Shown here in pieces: positions 5,604-27,966 of a DNA stretch of 64,000 nucleotides. The notes beneath the pieces were generated by a model, which saw only the letters and a list, made by a program, of their open reading frames with translations, made no database searches and was not told the DNA's origin. Both the position numbers and the translations under genes were made by a program. Location of the stretch: contig JAKFUG010000003.1 in NCBI GenBank assembly GCA_021732785.1, positions 248,001 to 312,000 on the forward strand. The letters run 5' to 3'. The stretch's first letter is position 1. Each line of letters begins with the position of its first letter. This DNA comes from Planctomycetaceae bacterium. GTDB lineage: Bacteria > Planctomycetota > Planctomycetia > Planctomycetales > Planctomycetaceae.

Positions 5604-6788
5604 ATGTTCGCGCGGTGTTGGATGGGTGGGCTGATGGTGTGTGCCATCGCCATGACGACGGTACCAGTCTGGTCGGCGGAAGAACTGCAATCCTTGTGGC
5701 CCAACGGGGCACCCGGCAAGGTGGGGGATGAACCGGGCGACAAACCCGGACTGTGGGTCTATCCCGCGGCGAAGGATAACAACAGCGGCACCGCGGTCGT
5801 GGTTTGCCCCGGCGGCGGGTATGGCATTCACGCCGTCGATCACGAAGGAACGCAGGTTGCGCGGTGGCTGAACTCGATCGGCGTCTCGGCGTATGTCCTC
5901 AAGTATCGGCTCGCTCCGCGGTACAAGCACCCGGCTCCGTTACAGGATGTGCAACGCGCGATTCAACATGTGCGGGCCCATGCGGAGCAACTCGGCGTCA
6001 ACCCGAAGCGCATCGGTGTGATGGGCTTCTCCGCGGGCGGACATCTCGCCTCGACGTGTGCAACCCACTTTGTCGAGGCGAAAGCGGATGCGACCGATCC
6101 TGTCGAAAAGGTCTCCTCCCGACCCGATTTCGCGGTGCTCTGTTACGCCGTCATCAGCATGACCGAACCATTCGGGCACAGCGGCTCGAAGCGCAATCTG
6201 CTGGGGGAGAACGCCGATCCGGAGTTGGCGAAGTTCCTGTCGAGCGAGTTACAGGTCACGCCGCAAACGCCGCCGACGTTCCTGTTCCACACGGGGGAAG
6301 ACACGGGCGTGCCGGTGGAGAACAGCCTCGCCTTCTATGCGGCATGCCGGAAGCACAAAGTCCCGGCGGAACTGCACGTTTACCAGTTCGGCCCGCACGG
6401 CGTCGGCCTGGCCCCCGGTGATCCGGCCCTGTTCACGTGGAAAGACCGCCTGCACGACTGGTTGCGAAATTCCAGTCTGCTCGCCGATGTCAAACGCTCC
6501 GCGGTGAAGGGGATGATTGTGGTGAACGGCAACCCGCTCAAATGGGGGCAGGTCCGTTTTGCGTCGACGCCCTTCCAGCCGGTGGCCTTCGCGATGGTCC
6601 GCAACGGGGCGTACAACATCGACGCGGCTCACGGACCGTCACTCGGCACGAACACGGTGGAGGTGATCGACATGGGCGACGTTGCTCCGGCACCGACGGT
6701 CGTCGACAGCGTGGAACTCAACACCCGCGGTATCGTCCTGAACGTGACCGACGGCGCGAACGTGTTCGATTTGGACATCAAGAAATAG
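5604..6788 (+). CDS. Exported alpha/beta hydrolase, acetyl-esterase type
   Basis: A 394-residue protein with a signal peptide (about residues 1-22, ending VPVWSAEE) and an esterase domain of the BD-FAE / acetylxylan esterase group. Motifs in order are VVVCPGGGYG (oxyanion loop), GFSAGGH with nucleophile Ser143, GEDTGVP carrying the acid, and FGPHGVGL carrying the catalytic His. Family members deacetylate or deferuloylate plant or algal polysaccharides. A C-terminal extension of about 95 residues (KGMIVVNGNPLKWGQVRF...) looks like a carboxypeptidase-regulatory-like beta domain. The start at 5604 has GAGG 7 bases upstream. Periplasmic or secreted location is inferred. Confidence 0.85.
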   Translation: MFARCWMGGLMVCAIAMTTVPVWSAEELQSLWPNGAPGKVGDEPGDKPGLWVYPAAKDNNSGTAVVVCPGGGYGIHAVDHEGTQVARWLNSIGVSAYVLKYRLAPRYKHPAPLQDVQRAIQHVRAHAEQLGVNPKRIGVMGFSAGGHLASTCATHFVEAKADATDPVEKVSSRPDFAVLCYAVISMTEPFGHSGSKRNLLGENADPELAKFLSSELQVTPQTPPTFLFHTGEDTGVPVENSLAFYAACRKHKVPAELHVYQFGPHGVGLAPGDPALFTWKDRLHDWLRNSSLLADVKRSAVKGMIVVNGNPLKWGQVRFASTPFQPVAFAMVRNGAYNIDAAHGPSLGTNTVEVIDMGDVAPAPTVVDSVELNTRGIVLNVTDGANVFDLDIKK

Positions 6789-6820
6789 CGGCACGCGGCT
6801 GTGTGCGGGATGAACGTCAA

Positions 6821-6854
6821 AGCACCCCGGCTGCTCTGAAGCAGCCGGGGTGCT
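6821..6854. terminator. Bidirectional hairpin terminator
   Basis: A perfect 15-bp stem (AGCACCCCGGCTGCT / AGCAGCCGGGGTGCT) with a 4-base loop, followed on the + strand by GTCTTT. It lies between the convergent esterase (ends 6788) and symporter (ends 6865) genes and can serve both. Confidence 0.8.
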
Positions 6855-6864
6855 GTCTTTGCAA

Positions 6865-8217
6865 TCACGAAGGACTGGTGACGAAGGGCTCTTTCCCGGT
6901 TTCACTCTTCGCCACGCACGTCGCCACGGCGAGGTCACCCGTCACGTTGACCACCGTCCGGCACATATCGAGCAGGCGATCGACGCCGAGGATGATGCCA
7001 ATGGAATCTGCGGGAACGCCGACCGATTTCATCACGACCACGATGAGGGGAATCGAACCACCCGGCACTCCCGCGGTCCCAATGCCTGCGAGGATCGACA
7101 TCAGCACGACCTGCAATTGCTGCGCGAGTGTCAGTTCGACACCCATCACTTGCGCGAGGAAGAGAATTACCACGCCTTCATACAGCGCGGTGCCGTTCTG
7201 ATTACCGGTCGCGCCGACAGTGAGGACGAAACGTGACACGGCGGGCGGAAGTTTCAAATCCGTCTCGGCGACGCGCATCGCCGTCGGCAGTGTGGCATTT
7301 GATGAAGACGTGCTGAACGCGGTCAGCATGGCTTCCGCGGCGTTGGTGAAAAAATGCCACGGGGACATCCCGCCGAACGTCCAGATCACCACGCTGTACG
7401 TCACGAATAACTGAATTGCGAGACCAAGGACCACCGTCCCCGCGAACCACGCCAGCGTGCGGACGATCTCAAACCCGAGTTGAGCTGTAATCGCAAAGAC
7501 GAGGCATCCCGCGCCAATGGGAGCGAGTTTCAATGCGAATTCGATAATCACGGTCGTCACCGTCTGGATCGATTCCAATACGCCGATGAGCGGTTTGCAG
7601 TCGTCCATCCGCATCGTGATCGCGATGCCCACGATCAGCGAAAAGACCATCACGGCGAGCATGCCGTTCCCTTTGGAACTCCCGTCGACGGCCCCGACCA
7701 TTTCCTGCAAGGGGTTCTCGGGAATCATGTCGACCAGGACTTCGCCAATCGACTTTTTCTTCTCCGCGTTCGCTTCGATGGTGGTGACCTGCTTGCTGTA
7801 GTTCGCGAGCAGCCGTTTCTGTGTCTCGGGAGGCAACGATTTGCCGGGCTGAAACAGATTGACGAGTCCCATCCCGATGAGGACCGCAGCGGCCGAAAAA
7901 ATGCCCGTGAAGATCAGCGTCCGCAGCCCCATCCGTCCAAGCTTGCGGACATCGCCAATCTCCACCACGGCGAGCGCCAGGGCGGCAAACACCATCGGCA
8001 CGACGACCATCATCATCAACCGTAGAAAGATGCGACCGATGGGTTGCGCGACCGCAACCACGGTGGTCACCCACGTGGCAGGAACTTCGCGCCCGGCGAC
8101 GCCGACGAAGTTGGCAATCAACCCGAGCACCAGTCCGATGGTGAGACCAATGATGATCGGAGTGGCGGAGTGGGACTGCTGCGGTTGTTCGTCACTCATT
8201 GACATGCGGGTTTCCAT
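6865..8217 (-). CDS. Dicarboxylate/amino acid:cation symporter (DAACS, SLC1-like)
   Basis: A 450-residue inner-membrane transporter of the GltP/DctA family. Features are the serine-rich re-entrant loop TAFSTSSSNATLPTAMR, the NQNGTALYEG motif of transmembrane segment 7, and GIGTAGVPGGSIPL of the second re-entrant loop; about eight hydrophobic segments are visible. Members import glutamate, aspartate or C4-dicarboxylates with sodium or protons. Between TM3 and TM4 there is a longer periplasmic loop (KSLPPETQKRLLANYSKQV...) as in many planctomycete members. The start may instead be Met at 8205, which has GGAA upstream. Substrate is not predictable from sequence alone. Confidence 0.93.
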   Translation of the reverse strand: METRMSMSDEQPQQSHSATPIIIGLTIGLVLGLIANFVGVAGREVPATWVTTVVAVAQPIGRIFLRLMMMVVVPMVFAALALAVVEIGDVRKLGRMGLRTLIFTGIFSAAAVLIGMGLVNLFQPGKSLPPETQKRLLANYSKQVTTIEANAEKKKSIGEVLVDMIPENPLQEMVGAVDGSSKGNGMLAVMVFSLIVGIAITMRMDDCKPLIGVLESIQTVTTVIIEFALKLAPIGAGCLVFAITAQLGFEIVRTLAWFAGTVVLGLAIQLFVTYSVVIWTFGGMSPWHFFTNAAEAMLTAFSTSSSNATLPTAMRVAETDLKLPPAVSRFVLTVGATGNQNGTALYEGVVILFLAQVMGVELTLAQQLQVVLMSILAGIGTAGVPGGSIPLIVVVMKSVGVPADSIGIILGVDRLLDMCRTVVNVTGDLAVATCVAKSETGKEPFVTSPS

Positions 8218-17390: not shown

Positions 17391-19322
17391 TCACGCGGCT
17401 TCGGGGGGTTTCGGGCCGATGGTGCGGGTGCCTTTGCCGTGGCGCGCCTTCAGTTCAAATAAGCCGAAGATTTCGCTGGCGTTCAGGCTCAGCGAACGGT
17501 TGAGATTGTCTCCTTCGCCGAGAATCGTGGCGAAAAGCTCGCGCTTTTCCCGCAGGACGCGGTCGATTCGTTCTTCGATCGTATCTTTGCAGATGAACCG
17601 CGTGACGATCACCTGGCTCTTGCAGCCGATGCGGTGGGCGCGGTTGATCGCCTGATCTTCGATGGCCGGGTTCCACCACCGGTCGTACAGGAAGACATAG
17701 CCGGCGAATTGCAGATTCAGTCCGACGGCCCCGGTGCCGTAGCTCATCAGCAGAATATGCTTGTCGGGATCGTGTTTGAACTGGTCTAGGATCGGCTCGC
17801 GCTGCTTGGTGGGGACCCCCCCGTGGTAGACGAGGGCACCGTATGGCTCCATCCGAGAGGCCAGCCAGTCGATGGTTTTGGTCCACTGACTGAAGAGGAT
17901 GGCTTTGCCGCCGGAAGCGGCAATTTCTTCCATGTCTGCGTCCAGTCGGTCGAGCTTGGTGCTTTCATTGGTCAGCGGATCCCAGTTGGTGATTTGTTTC
18001 AACCGTAACACAAGTTCAAAGACGTGCTGGACGGAAATCTGGTCGCCGAGTTCGTTTAAGTGAACGATGCCCTCTTTTTCGGCCTGATCGTACGCATAGC
18101 GCTGACCGGGGCTGAGTTCGAGGATTTCGTCCCGGTCGAGCCGCGGCGGCATGTCTTTCATCACGAGGTCTTTAGTCCGCCGGAGAATGAACTCCTTGGC
18201 GAGCGTCTGCAACTGCTTCAAGTCGGGCGTGGCATTGGGCGGAACGACTTCAATGAATTCGTAGAGCGCCCCGAGTTCTTCCGGCCGGTTTTCGATGGGT
18301 GTTCCCGTGAGTGCCCAACTGCGACGACGCGGGAGCGCCCGCATCGTTTCCGCCGTGCGCGACGTCCGGTTCTTGATCCGTTGGGCTTCGTCGAGCACCA
18401 CCAGATCGAACTTGGGGAATGTTCCCTCTTCAAACGCGGCGAAGTCCCGCACCAGTGATTCATAGTTCGCAATGAGGACCGGTACGCCGGGCATCGTGTA
18501 AGTCAATTTGCGGCGATCGGTGTCCCCTTCGACAACCACGAACGGCAACTCTTCCGCCCAAGTGCGAAACTCGCGCTGCCAGTTCGGGAGTAGTGGTTTT
18601 GGGCAGACCAGCAGCACGCGCCGAGCTTGCCCACCTCGGACCAACAGCCGAATCGCGGTGATCGTCTGCATGGTCTTGCCGAGACCCATTTCATCTGCCA
18701 GCAACGCCGACGAACGCGAAAAGAGCCAGCCGATGCCTTCGTATTGATACGGAAACGGCTCGAACGGGATGATCAGCTCCTGCCCCGCGAGCCATGTTTG
18801 CAACGGCGGTTGCAGCAGATAAAACAACCGATCTTCGAGCGACAGCGAATCTTTGGGCGGCTTGATGCGGGTCAGCGGCTTCTTCGGCATCTCAACGCCG
18901 AGCAACTCCGCTTCCGTCGGACCGGCAGGAATGGCCGATTCGGGTTCCGGTTTGGGCGGCACAATCGGTCGCAGGTCTTCGTCCGGCTTCTTCTCCGCAG
19001 ACGGAAGAAAAGTCACCGCTTCCGGGAAAGTGAGACCGAACGTCAACACTTTCGGCTTCGGCGGCTTCCATCCCGATGCGTTCACCACCACGTGCAGGGA
19101 AACCGATTGCGGTTCCGCTTTGCTCCAGCGCTGTAGCGCGCTGTTCAACCCCGCGGCGTAAACATCGGTGCTGACAGAGAGATTGGTCGATTCGCAATCA
19201 ACCGTGATTTCATCGCCAGTGACCGGCAGGACATCGCTCGTGAAATGCGGACCGCGAACCACGTCGTCGCCCGTGACGGAGCGGGTTACCAAGCGATCGA
19301 CGCGTTCCGTCACATCATCCAT
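17391..19322 (-). CDS. SNF2-type DEAD/DEAH helicase
   Basis: A 643-residue superfamily 2 ATPase of the SNF2/RapA-like group. Helicase motifs in order are ADEMGLGKT (Walker A, about 209-217), [11 protein letters not shown] (DEAQ box, about 308-318), LTGTPIENR (motif III, about 338), a [12 protein letters not shown] segment, [18 protein letters not shown] (motif V) and INRAHRIG (motif VI). The N-terminal 150 residues are beta-rich and contain a proline-rich linker; no zinc-binding SWIM motif is visible. Such enzymes translocate on double-stranded DNA to remodel or recycle protein-DNA complexes. It stands alone; no restriction or defence genes are adjacent. Confidence 0.93.
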
Positions 19323-20591: not shown

Positions 20592-21074
20592 ATGTTCCCA
20601 AATTCTTGGAAGCATATGATCTTGGCAATTGCACTTTGTGCCATCAGCGCTGTGGCGATCGGGTTTGCGGAGGACTCTCCGCAAAAAAACAACCGAGTCT
20701 CGCTCTCGATGGAAGAGGCGCGGCTGACAAAGGACCCTCTCAAGAGCGACCCCATTCTGATCTCCAAGACCATTGCGGCCGCTCCGGGTGATGTGATCGA
20801 AATTTCGCTGGAAGTCGGTGCCGGAGTCCCGTATCGATGGTTGTGCTTGGAACCATCCTCGGAGAACTTCGTGAGTGTCATTCGTGAGCGTGATCAGGCT
20901 AAGCAAACGCAGATCGGAACCGGAGGGACGGAAAACGCCATTTGGCGGGCCACCGTCGGGAAAGGAGGTTCACTCGTTTTTGTCTGGGGACAGGTACAAG
21001 GTGATCCCAAGACAAAGAAACTGATGATCGCCGAGCCACGCCGGGCACTCATTGTGACTACGGTTTCTCGTTGA
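20592..21074 (+). CDS. Probable exported chagasin-like (I42) cysteine-protease inhibitor
   Basis: A 160-residue protein with a signal peptide (about 1-26, ending AVAIGFAE). The mature part fits the chagasin / I42 inhibitor layout: GDVIEISLEVGAGVPYRWLC where the family has NPTTGYxW, a central GTGGTENAIW where it has a GxGG turn, then a beta strand LVFVWGQV and a terminal RRALIVTTV strand. The canonical NPTTG loop is replaced by VGAGVPYRW and no RPW motif is present, so the match is of fold and order, not identity. It lies 60 bases upstream of a papain-family protease in the same direction. GGAGGAG precedes the ATG. Assignment as an inhibitor is inference. Confidence 0.55.
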   Translation: MFPNSWKHMILAIALCAISAVAIGFAEDSPQKNNRVSLSMEEARLTKDPLKSDPILISKTIAAAPGDVIEISLEVGAGVPYRWLCLEPSSENFVSVIRERDQAKQTQIGTGGTENAIWRATVGKGGSLVFVWGQVQGDPKTKKLMIAEPRRALIVTTVSR

Positions 21075-21134
21075 ATGGCCCGAACTTGTGTTCAGGCCAC
21101 ATGCCCTTCATTCTTGATCAGGAATTGAGTAATA

Positions 21135-22568
21135 ATGATGACAGGTGCAATTCATTTGTTGCGACACACACCGCTGGTTGCAGCCGCGTTCGTAGTCGCC
21201 TTTAGCATAGCTGGCATTGGCGATGCCCAGGCACCGGCCGCAAAAAAAATTGATCCGGCTGCTCTTCAGCAAGTGGGTGCGACACCGAACGTCGCTCTGG
21301 ATTTAATCAAGCAGAATTATAGAGACCGGGTCAAAAATCTCAATATTTCGCAAGAAGCTCAAAACGAGCTGATCGGTAAAATGGTAATAAATCCAAAGCT
21401 GCAAGCGGTGCAGGATCAGATGAAAGTCATCATGACCCGCCAACTCGATGCAAATCGTCCATTGGTGGGAGCAGGGGTGGCCGACAACGCGGAAGCTCAA
21501 AAGCAACTTCGAAAAGCCGCTTTCAAAGAAGTGATCCGCAAGTCTTTCGCTGGGGTCGTGGTCCCGCCGGACCTGCTGCGGACGGAGCAAAGCAAGATTC
21601 AAGTTGGTACCTCACCGCGAATCATCCCGAAAGTTGGCGCTGGCATCGTCGCGCCGCCCGTCGTCAACCCAGCCACGTTCGATTGGCGTGACACGGGAGT
21701 CGTTCCGTCCGTCGTTCGCAACCAGGATGACTGCCAAACCTGCTGGGCCTTCTCCGCTGTGGGAGTGGCAGAGTGCAGTCTCATGATCCAGTCGGCGGCC
21801 AACACATTCGCTGCGACGAAGCCGGATTTTTCAGAGCAATTCGTGGTCAGCGCGATGGGCCGGACTTGTCAGAATAGAGGGCATTACACCGAAGCCTGGG
21901 ACCAAGTCTTAAAAGCTGCGGATGGTATTCCCGACGAGGGGACAACACCTGTGTCCCCTAATCCCCATCGTATTGGAGCATGGGGTCTGGTCAATAGCAC
22001 ATCGCTCATTCCTACGAACGAGGAAATGAAGACCGCGCTCCGCGAACATGGCCCGTTAGCCGTGTGCATGGACGTGGAAGAAGCGTTTATGGCCGTGGCT
22101 TCAATGGATCCCTATGCCGGTGAGTCTAATGACGAACGGCGCGGTGTCGACCATGCAGTCATTCTCGTCGGCTGGACAAACGATGGCTGGATTATTCGTA
22201 ATTCCTGGGGGCCAACGTACGGTCTGAACGGCTACCAGGTCGTGGCCTTTAACACGATGAACATCGGTTATACGGCCGCTTGGGCAACATACGGCTTGAA
22301 TGGGACTGTTGTGACGCAAAACAAGGCTAACTTGACTGCGACGAAGTCCGAATTGCTGGGCGATGAAAAGTCCCAGAAAATCTGGCGCAATCTCGCGATC
22401 TACCAAGCAAAGCTCTCCGCGGCAGGTCAAGTCACCGATGCAAATCTATTTGACTTGCGTCCCGGTTCATTGCGAGCGGAAACGCGTGAAGTCCCACGAG
22501 CCACCGAGGCAAATCGACCTTTTCTCAAGACAAAAGCAGAGGTCGAGAAGGAATGGCCGTCGCCATAA
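21135..22568 (+). CDS. Exported papain-family (C1) cysteine protease
   Basis: A 477-residue protein with a signal peptide (about 1-31), a prodomain-like helical region (about 40-175) and a C1 peptidase domain. Active-site residues are Gln197 and Cys203 in RNQDDCQTCWAFS, His340 in VDHAVILVGW and Asn356 in IIRNSWGPTYGLNGY. C200 matches the disulphide cysteine of papain. A C-terminal tail of about 95 residues follows the catalytic domain. It is expected to degrade proteins outside the cytoplasm after removal of the prodomain. It is preceded by the chagasin-like gene, suggesting a protease-inhibitor pair. Confidence 0.9.
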   Translation: MMTGAIHLLRHTPLVAAAFVVAFSIAGIGDAQAPAAKKIDPAALQQVGATPNVALDLIKQNYRDRVKNLNISQEAQNELIGKMVINPKLQAVQDQMKVIMTRQLDANRPLVGAGVADNAEAQKQLRKAAFKEVIRKSFAGVVVPPDLLRTEQSKIQVGTSPRIIPKVGAGIVAPPVVNPATFDWRDTGVVPSVVRNQDDCQTCWAFSAVGVAECSLMIQSAANTFAATKPDFSEQFVVSAMGRTCQNRGHYTEAWDQVLKAADGIPDEGTTPVSPNPHRIGAWGLVNSTSLIPTNEEMKTALREHGPLAVCMDVEEAFMAVASMDPYAGESNDERRGVDHAVILVGWTNDGWIIRNSWGPTYGLNGYQVVAFNTMNIGYTAAWATYGLNGTVVTQNKANLTATKSELLGDEKSQKIWRNLAIYQAKLSAAGQVTDANLFDLRPGSLRAETREVPRATEANRPFLKTKAEVEKEWPSP

Positions 22569-22621
22569 AATGAAATCATAGAGTTGGATTGAATGACGGT
22601 TTCGTGCGGTTTCTCATGTGC

Positions 22622-22660
22622 AAAAAGGAGTTGCAAAGCCCTTTGGCTCTGCAACTCCTT
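22622..22660. terminator. Bidirectional hairpin terminator
   Basis: AAGGAGTTGCA / TGCAACTCCTT with an inner AGCC / GGCT and a CTTT loop. It lies between the convergent protease (ends 22568) and coiled-coil (ends 22686) genes. The minus-strand transcript would end in TTTTT (22622-22626). Confidence 0.8.
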
Positions 22661-22685
22661 TCGCACTGAGGCGCTGTAAAATCAC

Positions 22686-26577: not shown

Positions 26578-27663
26578 TTACCGAACTTTACCGTCGCGAA
26601 TCTGCAACTCTTTGATCTTGAATATGCCGCCGGTTTCTTTGACGAGGGTAATCTGAATGGTCGTTTCCCCCTTCTTGAACGTGAACTGCACGCCATTCCC
26701 GCCCGCGGCCCGGCGGTTCGTCCCCTGCATCCCGTCGAAGGTGGTCTTGTAGCATTCGATTTGCGTGGGTTTCAGGTCTTGCGAGCGGAATTCCGCCGCG
26801 AGTCCTTTCGCCTTATCGCTGACGATGGAATCGATTCCGGTGTAGTCGCCGGCCTTGGCCATCGCCACGAGTTTCGAGATGACGTATTCAATGGAACCGG
26901 GTTCACCACTGATGGCGTTCCCGCCTCCCTGACCACCTTGCCCGTCCGGAGCACCCGGATTGATGGCACCGGGATTGGCTGCGGCTGCGCCACCGGGGTT
27001 TGCGGCGAGGTTGCCCGGCGCGTTGCCGGCTGCTAAAGCCAATGCAGGATCGACCGCACCGGGGGGAGTGGCCGCACCGTGGGCCGCGGCAGGAGTGGCC
27101 GCGGCACCCGCAACGGCCGCAGGGTTCACACCGCCTGGTGGAGTCGCCGCACCGTGAGCCGCGGCGGGGGTGTTGCCGGCAGCGATCGCTGGATTTGCAC
27201 CCGGTGGGGTGGCCGCACCATGCGCCGCGGCGGGCGTGCTGCCCGGAACGTTGGCGGGGAGGACTCCCGGGGGAGTCGCCGAGCCGTGAGCCGCGGCGGG
27301 AGCATTGGCAGCGGCCGCCATTGCTGCGGCATTCATTCCAGGTGGCGTTGCCGATCCATGGGCCGCGGCAGGGTTACCACCATGTGCATTCGCCATGGCC
27401 ATTGTCGGATTCATCGACGGGTTACCGTGACCGGCGGCAGGGGTTGTCCCCGTTCCAGGGACGGCTGCCATGCCGGGGGGCATCGCCGCACCGTGTTGGG
27501 CGTGCATTCCCGGTTGCGCTGCCGGAGCCCCGGGAACAGCCGCATTATTGGCCACCGGAGCCGTTGTGTCCGCTCCCCCACCGCAACCCGAGATCAGCGA
27601 GGCACCGAATAACGAGAATGCCGCCAGTTGATGCCAGGGACGGATGTGATGAACGAGTCGCAT
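26578..27663 (-). CDS. Lipoprotein with AAAHGxATPPG repeats and C-terminal domain
   Basis: A 361-residue protein. The signal peptide ends SLFGASLISGC, a lipobox, followed by GGGAD. Residues about 70-230 are low-complexity, with five near-perfect copies of PAAAHG[A/S]ATPPG spaced about 21-25 residues apart, plus degenerate copies. Residues about 260-361 form a compact domain (SIEYVISKLVAMAKAGDYTG, FDGMQGTNRR, GVQFTFKKGETTIQITLVKE) similar in layout to DUF4878-type lipoprotein domains. GGAG lies 7 bases ahead of the ATG at 27663. It is probably a membrane-anchored, surface-extended protein; function unknown. Confidence 0.78.
   Translation of the reverse strand: MRLVHHIRPWHQLAAFSLFGASLISGCGGGADTTAPVANNAAVPGAPAAQPGMHAQHGAAMPPGMAAVPGTGTTPAAGHGNPSMNPTMAMANAHGGNPAAAHGSATPPGMNAAAMAAAANAPAAAHGSATPPGVLPANVPGSTPAAAHGAATPPGANPAIAAGNTPAAAHGAATPPGGVNPAAVAGAAATPAAAHGAATPPGAVDPALALAAGNAPGNLAANPGGAAAANPGAINPGAPDGQGGQGGGNAISGEPGSIEYVISKLVAMAKAGDYTGIDSIVSDKAKGLAAEFRSQDLKPTQIECYKTTFDGMQGTNRRAAGGNGVQFTFKKGETTIQITLVKETGGIFKIKELQIRDGKVR
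27066..27370. repeat. Tandem coding repeat in the lipoprotein gene
   Basis: Five units of about 66-74 bases share a core reading GCCGCACCGTGAGCCGCGGC with a few changes. They encode the PAAAHG[A/S]ATPPG motif. Core positions are near 27072, 27146, 27211, 27278 and 27348. Spacer sequences are variable. Confidence 0.85.
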
Positions 27664-27966
27664 GGGAAGCTCCAGATGGGATGGCATCTTGCTCGGAAGA
27701 ACGAAGAGTCCGAGTGGAGAAATTCCCTTTCGGACACGGCCCGACGATGAAGAGAAGTTGAATATCGCATTCCGGACCTTCGTTGACAAGCGGGATGCGA
27801 CTCCACCGATCAATTTTCTCCAACCTTACGCAGACGCAGCGTCTGGGTTCAGTTTGCCGGAGGACGACCCGTCCTGGTGGATTGCCGGAACGAATGGAAG
27901 CAACGGTCCCGGCGATCAGGAGACAACCGGGACCGATTCGCATTGGCAATGGGGGCTCGGACGCGA
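27664..27966. other. Intergenic region, no gene seen
   Basis: 303 bases between two tandem minus-strand genes. It contains only short imperfect palindromes (such as GCAGACGCAGCGTCTGG near 27831). It should hold the promoter of the repeat lipoprotein. Confidence 0.5.

Follow-up and report, generated by a model that had tools for sequence, protein, structure and literature searches.

The window analysed here (64,000 nt of a Planctomycetaceae bacterium, assembly GCA_021732785.1, contig JAKFUG010000003.1, positions 248,001-312,000 of the forward strand) contains two adjoining genes that, judged from their sequences, are most plausibly a divergent example of a modular locus type that combines a C1A protease with an I42 inhibitor. 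An earlier note had pointed to a small exported ORF next to a C1 protease at this site, and both ORFs are indeed there, 60 bp apart. By analogy with chagasin we infer binding and inhibition, and consider it probable that the two genes form a locus for a protease and its cognate inhibitor, in which the exported I42-fold protein would block the neighbouring C1 protease for self-protection. The layout of the locus in window coordinates is as follows:

20592-21074 (+): exported chagasin-like protein of 160 aa with a predicted I42 fold, putative inhibitor (sub-threshold Pfam match, hhalign, Foldseek)
21075-21134 (+): intergenic stretch of 60 bp without a strong terminator hairpin (fold z-score -1.45; no terminator-like site found)
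21135-22568 (+): exported papain-family (C1) cysteine protease of 477 aa (Pfam Peptidase_C1, own-genome search, best match in the PDB)
22612-22671 (no strand assigned): strong hairpin 3' of the pair and ahead of a convergent gene (-35.8 kcal/mol, z -7.5), a probable bidirectional terminator

Because a strong hairpin follows the pair and none lies between its members, a single transcript of the two same-strand genes is plausible. In the 6.7-Mb genome as a whole, the 160-aa ORF is the only I42 match (E <= 10), and it lies beside the only C1 gene.

The following features of the small protein are referred to below:

20592-20669 (+): predicted Sec signal sequence, residues 1-26 (by eye; residues 5-21 are helical in the AlphaFold2 model)
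20808-20840 (+): BC loop LEVGAGVPYRW, residues 73-83, at the NPTTG position (alignment), with the sequence replaced and the length kept
20916-20927 (+): GTGG, residues 109-112, the retained GxGG motif (alignment, HMM)
20985-21008 (+): FG loop WGQVQGDP, residues 132-139, at the RPW position (alignment), with the motif lost

The 160-aa protein carries by eye a Sec-type signal sequence (AISAVAIGFA/EDS), which predicts export. Its score with the Pfam I42 profile (PF09394) is 15.8 bits (E = 0.017), below the cut-off of 27.2; on the same profile the partner of the homologous protease in another planctomycete (G121, see below) reaches 76.1 bits. The resemblance to I42 exceeds what chance would give: an HMM trained on 30 further I42 domains from planctomycetes gave the mature protein 17.5 bits, a value reached by none of 18,716 scored shuffles (best 12.4 bits). 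Profile comparison by hhalign with 23 I42 domains from similar cassettes gave Prob 78.6 (E 1.7e-5). This test discriminates, since the secreted neighbour at locus L101 (G643), which is I42-like by eye, obtained a Prob of only 1.6 and was excluded from our counts. Searches of 149 relatives, of the genome contig database and (by sequence) of the PDB revealed no protein-level relatives of the 160-aa protein.

We modelled the small protein with AlphaFold2 twice, with the cassette I42 domains as alignment and from the mature sequence alone; the second run served as a control, since an alignment of I42 domains could steer the prediction. With the alignment the model reached pLDDT 74 (79-89 across most of the domain), and a Foldseek search of the PDB identified as its best match PbICP-C from the complex with falcipain-2 (3pnr_B, 1.3e-7), followed by EhICP2, amebosin and chagasin. 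The alignment-free model is of low confidence (pLDDT 54); its sole matches below E = 0.001 are PbICP-C (3pnr_B, 4.4e-4) and EhICP2. The earlier note had made its interpretation depend on an I42-like fold, and chagasin/ICP-type inhibitors are the best matches of both models. Thus, by prediction, the 160-aa protein would adopt the Ig-like I42 fold.

The chagasin family contacts its targets through the motifs NPTTG, GxGG and RPW (PMC5014320). It had been noted that VGAGVPYRW stands in place of NPTTG, and this holds for the 160-aa protein, where GAGVPY replaces the motif. In the alignment of the BC loop, Leu73 and Gly80 are nearly invariant and Trp83 is invariant; the conserved Leu and Trp lie 10 residues apart, a distance shared by most cassette partners from other phyla. 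In the FG loop, QVQ aligns with the RPF of the partner in G121. Chagasin with both threonines of NPTTG replaced retained picomolar binding of cathepsin L, whereas deletion of these threonines, which shortens the loop, destroyed inhibition of both tested enzymes (PMC2607524). Thus, the length of the BC loop weighs more than its letters, and its preservation in the 160-aa protein makes inhibition possible, though it is no proof.

The 477-aa protein can be divided as follows:

21234-21668 (+): N-terminal segment resembling a pro-region, residues 34-178 (about 140 residues), with no Pfam prodomain recognised
21669-22292 (+): C1 catalytic domain, residues 179-386, with Gln197, Cys203, His340 and Asn356 (Pfam, alignments)
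22326-22565 (+): C-terminal tail, residues 398-477, similar to a small secreted protein encoded at the corresponding site in a sister genome (G001)

This ORF (21135-22568) is, by its sequence, a papain-family C1 protease of putative activity. It matches Pfam Peptidase_C1 (PF00112) with E = 7.1e-27, its best sequence match in the PDB is the cathepsin L-like 3qj3 (E 3.7e-19), and the four active-site residues named in the earlier note are conserved in the G121 homologue and align with those of cathepsins. It carries by eye a Sec-type signal sequence (AGIGDAQA/PAA; predicted export) and ends in a tail of about 80-90 residues. Its active-site motif is CQTC where most relatives carry CGSC, and it sits on a long branch of the C1 tree (1.79). 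The plasmid records searched contain no relative of it.

It had also been suggested to look for the same gene pair in other planctomycetes, and clear I42 domains were found beside or inside related C1 proteases. G121, from another family of the same class, encodes a homologue with 33-38% identity to the window protease, and directly upstream on the same strand lies a gene whose 275-aa product contains two I42 domains (E = 2.7e-21). These two tandem domains (L089:6562-7419) are identical in protein sequence, which reflects either a duplication in the very recent past or an error of the assembly. Among the 16 genomes of the class with a related protease, eight have an I42-type partner (the window genome, G121, G133, G528, G537, G581, G555 and G552); in G133, G528, G537, G581 and G555 it is a secreted neighbour downstream of the protease (hhalign Prob 92 for G555). 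Several of the planctomycete partners have eroded motifs too. In G552 (Singulisphaera sp. GP187) the I42 domain follows, within one fusion protein, a C1 domain that has Asp (CGSDW) at the position of the catalytic Cys. The GP187 locus consists of tandem C1 paralogues (L091:4351-5904 and 5959-7089; the same as L153), of which the first has the Asp-for-Cys substitution and the C-terminal I42 domain, and the second is intact and has no I42 domain. The first may be a pseudo-protease bearing an inhibitor for its neighbour. Pairs are present also in other planctomycete classes (G455, G388, G307). The remoter C1 relatives within the class (L095, L096, L098-L100, L102-L105) have no I42 neighbour; among them, the homologue at L100:1-1197 has Ser for the catalytic Cys and is likely a dead protease branch in the class.

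To scan more widely, we used the C1 alignment as query against one genome per species and fetched loci by their C1 sequence only, which yielded 80 loci from many phyla; the I42 HMM applied to them was built without the window protein. I42 domains were found in 22 of the 80 (among them loci from Cyanobacteriota, Pseudomonadota, Spirochaetota, Acidobacteriota, Bacteroidota, Chloroflexota and Myxococcota) and most of the loci lack an I42 neighbour, a frequency that is biased because the query included proteases with known I42 neighbours. When the planctomycete loci are added, the I42 domain adjoins or is fused to the protease in 31 of 32 distinct loci with an I42 match. The C1 protease and its I42 partner thus share a conserved gene neighbourhood in which the order varies: the I42 gene is upstream in 10 cases, downstream in 13 and on the opposite strand in four, and in L184, L160, L147 and L146 the two genes overlap or nearly touch. 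The cassette partners are clear relatives of chagasin, and the solved structures nearest to them are ICP of P. aeruginosa (2wgn, E 1.5e-18) and chagasin (E 1.1e-17). In a Microcoleus MAG, the gene immediately ahead of the C1 protease gene codes for a protein with three I42 domains in tandem (L147:2504-3634). In four fusions that retain the catalytic Cys (L182, L199, L171 and L174) the I42 domain is N-terminal to C1, i.e. in the position of a prodomain; these fusions come from MAGs of Chloroflexota, Bacteroidota and Pseudomonadota. Mapped onto the C1 tree, the I42 label shows a clustered yet patchy distribution (17 changes versus 27 with shuffled labels), and because of this patchiness we do not claim a single origin with strict co-inheritance.

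We regard these comparisons (G121, the relatives in the class and the scan of phyla) as the decisive support, at the level of sequence, for reading the two window genes as a pair. In the mechanism that we propose, both proteins would be exported, either into the periplasm or out of the cell, and the BC, DE and FG loops of the 160-aa protein would, by analogy with chagasin, press into the cleft that holds the active site of the adjacent C1 protease. While the inhibitor is bound, the enzyme would be harmless in the producer's own envelope, and it would be released by dilution, degradation or titration of the inhibitor. The recurrence of the pairing across many phyla, fusions included, suggests that many bacteria restrain such proteases with a built-in inhibitor. 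Of the two roles proposed in the earlier note, self-restraint of the protease is better supported than timed activation, which is a guess.

The main rival, to which we assign a small but real probability, is that the 160-aa protein descends from an I42 inhibitor and no longer inhibits, being either in decay or repurposed to assist the folding of the protease or to dock with it. The loss of two of the three contact motifs would agree with such a history, as would the erosion seen in several planctomycete partners, the long branch of the protease and its CQTC motif. However, the protein retains GxGG, the loop length and the predicted fold, neither reading frame is disrupted, and the tolerance of chagasin to threonine replacement, as opposed to loop shortening (PMC2607524), argues that a protein with a full-length loop could still inhibit. 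Less probable still is an I42-like protein aimed at foreign proteases of competitors, predators or hosts, with its adjacency to a C1 gene incidental. Cip1 of Pseudomonas syringae, a secreted chagasin that acts on plant proteases (PMC5014320), offers a precedent for such a target, but adjacency or fusion to C1 genes recurs in many phyla, and the only C1 gene and the only I42-like match of this genome are neighbours. Finally, a chance resemblance between I42 and an unrelated exported protein of beta-sandwich fold is a very improbable reading, to which the sub-threshold Pfam score and the modest profile-profile Prob lend some colour and against which stand the shuffle control, the best Foldseek matches of two models, the low score of the L101 neighbour in the same profile test, and the fact that the gene occupies the same place as the unmistakable I42 partners of homologous proteases.

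For the cognate-inhibitor locus that we favour, the sister genomes G001 and G002 offer a view of the local history. In both, the flanking SNF2-type gene is kept (79 and 96% identity of the protein), and the gene on the downstream side is 45% identical. Between these flanks there is neither an I42 nor a C1 gene in G001 or G002, and the interval measures ~0.9 kb compared to 2.7 kb in the window; hence the cassette was either gained in the window genome or lost in the sisters. The G001 interval encodes, on the corresponding strand, a small secreted protein (L234:1623-2210, minus strand) whose C-terminus is similar to the protease tail in the window (32% identity, E 0.016), a match that plain BLASTP did not report and that we consider a weak lead. 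One reading of the history of the locus would be that a C1 domain was joined onto a resident small gene. In the window the SNF2-type helicase (17391-19322, minus strand, 643 aa) is conserved in the family and scores far below the NCBIfam equivalog cut-offs for defence and pilus helicases. Further along, the minus strand (26578-27813) encodes an exported protein in which a long stretch of low complexity repeats P-A-A-A-H-G-S/A-A-T-P-P-G.

The role of bacterial chagasins has been called open (PMC5014320), and both own and host proteases have been proposed as their targets (PMC2784779). On balance, we lean towards the view that I42 domains, genetically linked to a wide group of exported C1A proteases in bacteria, are the native regulators of these enzymes, acting in trans (as separate genes and tandem arrays) or in cis (N-terminally, in the prodomain position), and that the window pair is a fast-diverging member whose contact loops have been rebuilt for one partner only. 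If true, the purpose of many bacterial chagasins would be explained; the recurring locus with its natural fusions offers matched pairs in which the "own protease" answer can be put to the test, and the window member, which has lost two of the three canonical motifs, would illustrate how much an I42 inhibitor can drift once it is committed to one enzyme. Both chagasin inhibitors and operons pairing a protease with its inhibitor have been described before; we found no paper describing a C1A and chagasin (I42) gene pair in the searchable, non-subscription literature.

Compared with chagasin/ICP (MEROPS I42, PF09394), the window protein has the same predicted Ig-like fold, GxGG, BC-loop length and Leu/Trp frame, but differs in its GAGVPY and QVQ in place of NPTTG and RPW, in scoring below the Pfam cut-off, and in being encoded beside a C1 protease. 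The window protease shares with the C1A papain family (cathepsin L-like) the C1 domain with its Gln-Cys-His-Asn residues, and differs in the absence of a recognised I29 prodomain, in CQTC instead of CGSC, and in the added C-terminal tail. Cip1 is likewise a secreted bacterial protein of chagasin type, but it keeps NPTTG, GxGG and RPW, of which the window protein retains only GxGG; Pseudomonas genomes mostly lack a C1A protease, and Cip1 inhibits plant proteases (PMC5014320). The closest parallels in logic are staphopain/staphostatin, SpeB/Spi and the Bacteroides C10 proteases with Bti-Bfi, where the gene of an exported papain-fold protease adjoins a small gene for its cognate inhibitor, located up- or downstream (PMC3462683). 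The window pair would follow the same logic with another inhibitor family: the proteases of those systems belong to families C47 and C10, and their inhibitor folds are unrelated to I42. Staphostatins and Spi are thought to be cytoplasmic, whereas the putative inhibitor of the window carries an export signal, as do the Bacteroides inhibitors.
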